Origin: Rhodopseudomonas pseudopalustris
GTDB lineage: Bacteria; Pseudomonadota; Alphaproteobacteria; Rhizobiales; Xanthobacteraceae
Length of the DNA stretch: 64,000 nt
Direction of reading: 5' to 3'
NCBI RefSeq assembly: GCF_900110435.1
Contig: NZ_FODT01000001.1
Span: 671,335-735,334 of the forward strand
Shown here: one piece after another, positions 61,953-64,000 of the stretch
Position numbering within the stretch: position 1 is the stretch's first letter
Layout: each line of letters starts with the position of its first letter
Made by a program: the position numbers and the translations under genes
The notes under the pieces: generated by a model
Told to the model about the DNA's origin: nothing
Databases searched by the model: none
Seen by the model: only the letters and a program-made list of their open reading frames with translations

Positions 61953-63971
61953 ATGACCATCCGTCCCGACATTCCTCCGCAGCCCGATATCGCCGCCCCG
62001 GCCGAACCGCCGGCGCGGGTATCGCCGATGATGGAGCAGTATCACGAGATCAAGGCCGCCAATCCCGGCCTGCTGCTGTTCTACCGGATGGGCGATTTCT
62101 ACGAGCTGTTCTTCGAGGACGCCGAGATCGCCTCGCGCGCGCTCGGCATCACGCTGACCAAGCGCGGCAAGCATCTCGGCGCCGACATTCCGATGTGCGG
62201 CGTGCCGGTGGAGCGGTCCGACGATTACCTGCACCGGCTGATCGCGCTGGGGCATCGCGTCGCAGTATGCGAGCAGACCGAAGACCCGGCGGCGGCGCGC
62301 GCCCGCAAGAGCGTGGTGCGCCGCGACGTGGTGCGACTGATCACGCCCGGCACGCTCACCGAAGACACGCTGCTCGACGCCCGCGCCAACAACTATCTGA
62401 TGGCGATCGCGCGCACGCGCGGCTCGGCCGGCGTTGATCGCATCGGGCTCGCCTGGATCGACATTTCGACCGGTGAATTCTGCGTCACCGAATGCGCGAC
62501 CGGCGAATTGTCGGCGACGCTGGCGCGGATCAACCCGAACGAGGCGATCGTCTCGGACGCGCTGTACAGCGACGCCGAACTCGGGCCGAGCCTGCGCGAA
62601 CTCGCCGCGGTGACGCCCTTGACCCGCGACGTATTCGACTCGGCCACCGCCGAGCGGCGGCTGTGCGATTACTTCGCGGTGGCCACCATGGACGGCCTCG
62701 CCGCGCTGTCGCGGCTCGAGGCCGCTGCGGCCGCCGCCTGCGTCACCTATGTGGATCGCACCCAGCTCGGCAAGCGGCCGCCTTTGTCGCCGCCGGCGCG
62801 CGAGGCCGCAGGCGCCACCATGGCGATCGATCCCGCCACCCGCGCCAATCTCGAACTGACCCGCACGCTCGGCGGCGAACGCCGCGGCTCGCTGCTCGAT
62901 GCGATCGACTGCACCGTCACCGCCGCCGGCTCGCGCCTTCTCGCCCAGCGGCTCGCGGCGCCGCTGACCGACGAGGCGGCGATCGCACGGCGGCTCGACG
63001 CGGTCGCGGCCTTCGTCGCGGACAGCGCGCTGCGCGAACAGATCCGCAGCGCGCTCCGCGCCGCGCCCGACATGGCGCGGGCGCTGGCGCGGCTGTCGCT
63101 CGGCCGCGGCGGGCCGCGCGATCTCGCGAGCCTGCGCGACGGCGTGAGCGCCGCCGACCAGGTCCTGGCGCAACTTTCGCAGCTCGCCCAACCGCCGCAC
63201 GACATCGCCGCCGCGATGGCGGCGCTGCGGCGGCCGTCGCGCGATCTCTGCCAAGAACTCGCCCGCGCGCTCGCCGACGATCTGCCGCTGTTGAAACGCG
63301 ACGGCGGATTCGTCCGCGACGGTTATGAGGCTGCGCTCGACGAGACCCGCAAGCTGCGCGACGCCTCGCGCCTCGTGGTGGCGGCGATGCAGGCGCGCTA
63401 CGCCGACGAGACCGGCGTCAAAGGGCTGAAGATCCGGCACAACAACGTGCTCGGCTATTTCGTCGAAGTCACCGCGCAGCACGGCGACCGTCTGATGGCG
63501 CCGCCGCTCAACGCCACCTTCATCCATCGCCAGACGCTGGCCGGTCAGGTCCGGTTCACCACCGCCGAACTCGGCGAGATCGAGGCCAAGATCGCCAATG
63601 CGGGCGACCGCGCGCTCGGGCTCGAACTGGACATCTTCGACCGCCTCGCGGCGATGATCGACACGGCCGGCGACGATCTGCGCGCCGCGGCCCATGCGTT
63701 TGCGCTGCTCGACGTCGCGACCGCGCTGGCCAAGCTCGCCGTCTCCGATAACTACGTCCGGCCGGAAGTCGACGGGTCGCTCGCTTTCGCGATCGAAGGC
63801 GGCCGGCATCCGGTGGTCGAGCAGGCGCTCAAGCGCGCCGGCGAGCCGTTCATCGCCAATGCCTGCGACCTGTCGCCGGTCCCCCCACCCTTCCCTCCCC
63901 CGCAAGCGAGGCCTCTGCAAAACCTGACTGTTCTATCCAGATGTGATTCACTTGCGCGTAGGCGGAGGTGA
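61953..63971 (+). pseudogene. mutS: DNA mismatch repair protein MutS, interrupted before the ATPase domain
   Basis: From ATG 61953 the protein matches MutS for about 642 residues: mismatch-binding domain I with RMGDFYELFFEDAEIASRALGITLTKRG, the connector, the lever with DAIDCTVTAAGSRLLAQRL, and the clamp ending FIANACDLSP. MutS should then continue to the Walker A motif GPNMGGKST. Instead the frame runs through PPPFPPPQA, part of a palindromic repeat, into unrelated sequence and stops at 63971. The ATPase and dimerisation domains are absent from the window. A separate gene with a strong ribosome-binding site starts at 63977. The best reading is insertion of a mobile element; the 3' half of mutS should lie beyond the window. 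Confidence 0.85.
63880..63908. repeat. Half copy of the G/C-rich palindromic repeat within mutS
   Basis: TCCCCCCACCCTTCCCTCCCCCGCAAGCG corresponds to one arm and the loop (CGCAAG) of the element seen in hrpB and between cobS and cobT. The expected second arm (GGGGGAGGG) is replaced by unrelated sequence from about 63909. Confidence 0.72.
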
Positions 63972-64000
63972 ACGGGATGGCGCAGGACAGTTTCATTGAG
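63909..64000 (+). mobile_element. Probable left end of an insertion sequence with the start of its transposase gene
   Basis: Sequence changes abruptly from mutS/repeat to GAGGCCTCTGCAAAACCTG at about 63909, with lower GC than the surroundings. GGAGG (63964-63968) is followed 8 bases later by ATG 63977, which opens a frame MAQDSFIE running out of the window. A short leader from a terminal end to a well-placed start codon is the usual IS layout. The IS family cannot be named from eight residues; an IS5-type element is a guess. Confidence 0.6.

Follow-up and report, generated by a model that had tools for sequence, protein, structure and literature searches.

Probable splitting of mutS in Rhodopseudomonas pseudopalustris by an IS5-family element inserted into the loop of a repetitive intragenic palindrome

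Several insertion sequences (ISs) are described as residing exclusively in broken REP palindromes: in the account given in PMC1525189, this holds for all copies of ISRm22 (Sinorhizobium meliloti), ISPsy8, ISPa11, ISPpu9, ISPpu10 and ISRm19, and ISRm22 inserts at the axis of palindromy with 6-bp direct repeats. Palindromes also occur in frame within protein genes, as with the Rickettsia palindromic elements (RPE) of Ogata et al., as told in PMC10969869. In Bradyrhizobium, the repetitive palindromes Br-REP1 and Br-REP2 are described, and their presence in Rhodopseudomonas is reported as well (PMC5082802). Inactivated mutS, in turn, is presented as a main cause of hypermutation in cystic fibrosis P. 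aeruginosa (PMC7643977).

Here we analysed a window of 64,000 nucleotides (C16:671335-735334 of genome G000, Rhodopseudomonas pseudopalustris), which stops at the end of contig C16 (735,334 bp), where the sequence breaks off within a repeated IS. Our main reading, to which we assign a probability of roughly 0.87, is that mutS has been split by an IS5-family element that occupies the loop of a repetitive intragenic palindrome, and that mismatch repair is predicted to be abolished as a result. The end of the window carries the following features, in window coordinates:

61953-63971, plus strand: 5′ part of mutS, a frame of 672 aa (Pfam domain search; stop position)
63880-63907, no strand: left arm (63880-63901) and loop GCAAGC (63902-63907) of an in-frame palindrome (empty-site reconstruction)
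63908-64000, plus strand: left end of an IS5-family element, with terminal inverted repeat GAGGCCTCTGCAAAAC at 63908-63923 (match to whole copies)
63968-64000, plus strand: start of the transposase gene (GTG 63968 or ATG 63977), truncated at the contig end, with a ribosome-binding site at 63964-63969

The original prediction held that MutS homology runs for about 642 residues and breaks off before Walker A, and the Pfam search bears this out: residues 1-642 (61953-63878) comprise MutS domains I-IV, intact, with MutS_I, II, III and IV above the Pfam cut-offs, MutS_V is missing from the 61953-63971 frame, and the last 30 of its 672 residues are encoded by the palindrome and the IS, the frame ending at 63971. 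The sole MutS_V match in a genome-wide search of G000 lies at C4:124-687, at the start of a contig of 6,071 bp and beside the right end of the IS; the second IS end and the ATPase half of mutS, both anticipated beyond position 64000, are thus present together, the latter as GPNMAGKST. The C4 frame reads ...QAGEGRVGAGQIWLLTGPNMAGKST... up to the normal MutS end. Domains I-V, which characterize MutS (PRK05399) as a single protein, are divided here, with I-IV in the window, V on C4 and the IS between them, and the MutS_V search found no intact mutS allele in the assembly. Stops are absent from both halves of the gene. The ATPase-half frame (C4 bases 67-897) is open back into the IS end, and a GTG at C4:106, after a purine-rich stretch, opens a 263-aa frame of the ATPase half. 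By eye, the upstream stretch of the 67-897 frame is apparently the transposase frame continued past its stop codon. Further 3′ of mutS, bases 898-6071 of C4 matched nothing by blastn at the loci read from five Rhodopseudomonas relatives, and the downstream neighbourhood of mutS may be rearranged in this strain.

The element itself is ~1.15 kb long and occurs in four copies in G000. Two copies are whole (C16:373107-374255 and C16:388959-390107), and element ends are found at four contig ends, with left ends at the ends of C16 and C25, and right ends at the end of C18 and the start of C4. The last 93 bases of the window are the left end of the element, and the last 95 are identical to a whole copy. 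The new frame that had been noted for its perfect ribosome-binding site (GGAGGT, ahead of the ATG at 63977), and proposed as part of an IS, proved to be the start of an IS5-family transposase: the full frame of 323 aa, read in L013, scores 253.8 bits against NF033581 (NCBIfam IS5 family; cut-off 140), compared with 172.4 bits against the IS1182 model (cut-off 270), and matches Pfam DUF772 and DDE_Tnp_1. The element also has the terminal inverted repeats (GAGGCCTCTGCAAAAC / GAGACCTCTGCGAAAC) and target duplication that characterize the IS5 family. The non-mutS leader ahead of this frame, likewise attributed to an IS, is element sequence only from ~63908; bases 63879-63907 are instead one arm of a palindrome plus its loop, continuing the mutS reading frame. 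The start of the element has a margin of 2-4 bp, as the GC next to the loop could be assigned to palindrome or inverted repeat alike, and the 1,149-bp element query overruns the likely ends by a few bases, into the loop. Over these 1,149 positions the two whole copies show 4 differences, half of them at the TT/AA of the loop. That the copies are nearly identical, and that neither mutS half contains a stop, suggests a recent event.

The flanks of the element indicate which contig ends belong together. GCAAGC flanks the IS at both the end of C16 and the start of C4 (C4 bases 87-92), providing the target duplication that had been sought, and GCAAGAGC flanks it at the ends of both C25 and C18; among the whole copies, that at 373 kb of C16 has GCAAGC on both sides and that at 389 kb has GCTTGC on both sides. 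C16 and C4 can be joined uniquely because the only other unresolved pair of ends (C25-C18) carries GCAAGAGC and not GCAAGC, and joining the contig ends by their flanks also rejoins both mutS halves. The exact duplication is 2-6 bp (4-8 for the C25-C18 copy), its length being ambiguous because the loop has GC on either side, which may be part of the inverted repeat. We infer the IS copy within mutS from these junctions rather than from an assembled sequence, as both sides stop at contig ends.

With the element removed, the empty site has 22 paired positions per arm, reads in frame as SPVPPPFPPPQAGEGRVGAGQ, and sat directly before the strand leading to Walker A. The palindrome resembles REP elements in being short and repeated many times in the genome: its core, YCCCGCWWGCGGGR, occurs 66 times in the 5.27 Mb of G000 versus 2 occurrences of a reversed control, and the 50 sites listed include 13 inverted pairs with spacings of 89-162 bp, an arrangement like that of REP doublets. 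Inverted pairs ~100 bp apart (e.g. C8:144134/144234, C8:207650/207751 and C8:225027/225129) are REPIN-like. A search of G000 for a Y1 (RAYT) transposase (PF01797) gave no match at E 0.001, with 5 of 14 controls positive. DNA folding of the palindrome in relatives gave weak z-scores (-1.8 for L046 and -0.9 for L016), the L139 stretch having been folded without its right arm.

All four insertions in G000, two of them read as paired contig ends, split CTCCC-loop-GGGAG or CCCCC-loop-GGGGG palindromes, such that the halves of a broken REP flank every copy, as in the type 1 association of REP-targeting elements. The chance of four loop hits at random sites is ~1e-16, a rough figure that assumes 70 sites of 8 bp. 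Outside G000, the four best copies from an IS search of 391 family genomes were read (~88% identical, all congeneric), and three of these lie in the same kind of palindrome loop; the fourth (L112) is truncated, with no clear palindrome. The congeneric copy in L110 has GCAAGC on one flank and GCTTGC on the other, which suggests recombination between copies or flipping of the loop after insertion. A transposase search of plasmids listed 40 records, four of which were read (transposases 45-47% identical): two, from Rhizobium, lie in another palindrome with CTTCTCCCC-AGC or GAC-GGGGAGAAG loops, and no clear palindrome was seen at the site in L198 and L199. The tendency to insert into palindrome loops may predate the G000 element; the duplicated part seems to follow the loop, and the transposase may read the palindrome arms.

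Eighty named relatives were kept of 249 found, with the Walker motif seen in 79. A short loop such as CDLSPGPAQKSGQIW occupies the site in 77 named relatives, and L046 and L062 carry CDLSPVPPPYPPP(Q/L)AGEG..GAGQIW at the same place as the G000 palindrome. Searching 391 family genomes with the L046 stretch yielded 30 loci chosen by score, 11 of which have a palindrome-type loop by peptide pattern; in the corresponding protein search, 119 of the best 120 of 6,670 matches were readable and all had a palindrome-type loop, a proportion favoured by the query. As in Rickettsia, these palindromes are carried in frame, with the mutS frames of L046, L062, L138-L147 and L155 staying open. Symmetry at the DNA level extends to 25 paired positions in L155 and 22 in L139, L142 and L147, and to 5 in L143 and L146, where the palindromes look decayed, with symmetry largely lost. 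From one lineage to another, the arms differ by paired changes, CCCTTCCC with GGGAAGGG in G000 corresponding to CCCTACCC with GGGTAGGG in L139. Aligned to the solved structure 7ou2, which we take to be E. coli MutS, the insert falls before the strand to the Walker loop, where 7ou2 has only SPQRR, and this place can plausibly take extra residues.

The distribution of the palindromes was followed on a FastTree phylogeny of 109 rows, with SH-like support only and palindrome rows set by peptide pattern (L064, L159, P0121 and the P proteins were left out). Palindrome-type loops occur in 13 rows other than G000 and require at least 8 changes, 7 of them forced by starred branches, a count that does not by itself tell gain from loss. 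Of the seven Rhodopseudomonas rows in the starred set that contains G000, no other has a palindrome; L139 and L140, whose palindromes are almost perfect, have end branches of 0.004 and 0.007, and L046 and L138, on zero-length branches, are probably one genome. We read most changes as gains because the ancestral loop would need to be re-created at every exact loss, and palindromes were likely gained several times at the same mutS spot in related bacteria. In G000, the palindrome may have arrived by recombination with the mutS of another species. Over 180 bp, the left flank is most similar to L030 (0.90) and L032 (0.89), both Rhodopseudomonas without a palindrome, with palindrome-bearing L140 tying for third (0.883), and the right flank is nearest to L032 (0.93). 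A search with the truncated protein placed 33 proteins (P0123-P0155), all short-loop, at 88-94% identity after its own frame, the nearest palindrome-type proteins among the matches listed being ~86% identical. Within one named species, Bradyrhizobium erythrophlei, P0157 has a palindrome-type MutS loop (VPTPYPSPQAGERREGAG) and L069 a short loop, and the trait may vary within that species. Separately, P0183, a 666-aa MutS of another bacterium on a 53.6-kb ENA contig, ends ...CDLSPYPHPTLPRKRGRDQGRGQARSG, and the G000 palindrome read in another frame gives SPHPSLPRKRG. P0183 looks like a case in which a palindrome entered mutS out of frame and broke the gene, possibly a second way of losing mutS at the same spot; an assembly error is also possible.

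We propose that the split arose in three steps. A REP-like palindrome of the genome's own kind would have entered mutS in frame, replacing a short loop (e.g. GPAQKSG), after the lineage parted from the other sampled Rhodopseudomonas. MutS probably tolerated the palindrome, since other genera keep their mutS frames open through the same kind of insert. Because the palindrome was already in the gene, an IS whose transposase seems to choose CTCCC-GCWWGC-GGGAG loops could then have landed at this spot, duplicating the loop; the choice of loops is suggested by the four of four insertions found in them, and the duplication itself is shown by the flanks. As the sequence shows, translation from the mutS start now stops 30 residues past the mutS part and the ATPase half is cut off; function is presumably lost.

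Three other explanations bear on this course, and each appears improbable, to differing degrees. That mutS is intact, and that the contigs were wrongly ended in a repeat located elsewhere, would be in keeping with the position of both mutS ends at contig ends and with the shared tails (96 bp with C25 and 91 bp with C18) that a collapsed repeat would leave. We consider such an artefact very unlikely, however, as on each contig an IS end runs straight into mutS and the flanking repeat is shared, a different repeat flanks the other unresolved pair, and MutS_V was found in one place only. Even less credible, to the point of being almost negligible, is the notion that the palindrome represents the ends of the IS (long terminal inverted repeats) and matches other mutS genes by chance. 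At the mutS locus the two arms do resemble inverted repeats of the element, but the arms vary between copies whereas the element is nearly identical, and the same kind of palindrome occurs in the genome without an IS and inside uninterrupted mutS genes.

The insertion could instead be real but polymorphic, with part of the culture intact, or harmless, with the halves made separately and working together. Both halves are open, and the GTG at C4:106 could serve as the start of the 263-aa frame; separate translation of the ATPase half from this codon is possible, and slightly lowers our confidence in a split that abolishes function. Nonetheless, the assembly lacks an intact allele and no MutS known to us functions in two separate parts, and we regard this explanation as improbable, if the least so of the three. 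The split of mutS by an IS in a pre-existing palindrome remains our preferred reading. A broader proposal, that mobile palindromes settle repeatedly and in frame at the turn before Walker A, making it a permanent hot spot, and that each is a landing pad for palindrome-seeking ISs, seems to us unlikely. Were it true, these soil bacteria would carry an inherent point of breakage in their mismatch repair, and mutator lineages would arise at a rate set by the IS, perhaps to be restored by loss of the element.

MutS function depends on the binding of ATP in domain V, and inactivation of mutS by ISs occurs in other bacteria. The product from the mutS start is predicted to comprise 672 aa without the ATPase, and loss of mismatch repair would follow from the requirement for ATP binding; a mutator phenotype is predicted on this sequence-based reasoning. 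MutL is intact in G000, and the genome-wide search gave no second MutS_V. Across ~24 kb (window 39.7-63.9 kb), comparison with three relatives revealed no G000-specific excess of split genes or frameshifts, in a test of low power. Seven comparator frames looked split in G000: that at L192:14382-15044 belongs to no Pfam family, and the other six overlap the frames of other genes. Among the comparators, one clear split lies inside a Pfam domain (the DUF1345 gene of JA575), and an acyltransferase gene (MAG35) and a polyprenyl synthetase gene (XCP) are split near the N-terminus, outside the domain, which may be start-site noise. At the place corresponding to ~60,400-60,570 of the window, a 581-aa XCP frame has no tblastn match in the window and is split in the nearest relative. 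A rough motif scan did not locate the dedA gene.

Codon changes on the strain's own lineage were also compared for signs of relaxed selection. The N part of mutS (61953-63878) has 26 replacement and 24 silent changes versus 44 and 207 pooled over six other lineages (Fisher p 1.3e-6); set against 16 other G000 genes, it does not differ (31/50 against 177/416, p 0.13). The sister MAG35 shows stronger constraint on mutS than on its other genes (8/52, p 0.02). The C part has 9 replacement to 21 silent changes, versus 2 to 9 in L032. The comparators HC1 and 2.1.18 align only near mutS.

The case points to a two-step way for a mutation-control gene to be lost, in which a tolerated palindrome comes first and a palindrome-hunting element then breaks the gene. 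The repeated palindromes at one place in mutS constitute a natural test of how palindromes move, of interest because no Y1 (RAYT) transposase was found in G000, and also of whether palindromes within coding sequence make gene loss more likely; where draft genomes break at this point of mutS, the gene is worth checking. We found no paper in the open-licence literature on recurrent coding palindromes in mutS as an IS landing site. Of the described elements, ISRm22 is nearest in behaviour to the G000 IS, a likeness drawn from its description (palindrome targeting and 6-bp repeats); its sequence was not identified among the transposase matches listed. ISRm22 is, however, listed as IS4 family in PMC1525189, whereas the G000 element matches the IS5-family model, and REPs are treated as extragenic in that account, in contrast to a palindrome inside a DNA-repair gene. 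The Br-REP1 and Br-REP2 consensus sequences, as given in PMC5082802, differ from CTCCCGCWWGCGGGAG of G000. RPEs, as described, are ~150 bp long and occur in many unrelated genes, whereas the mutS palindrome, a ~45-bp member of a dispersed family of REP-like sequences, recurs at a single site in a single gene, mutS being the only gene examined. What sets the G000 case apart from mutS-defective natural mutators is that a repetitive palindrome already present in mutS accounts for where the IS landed. Palindrome-targeting ISs and in-frame palindromes are both known; what appears to be new is that the two are joined in mutS.
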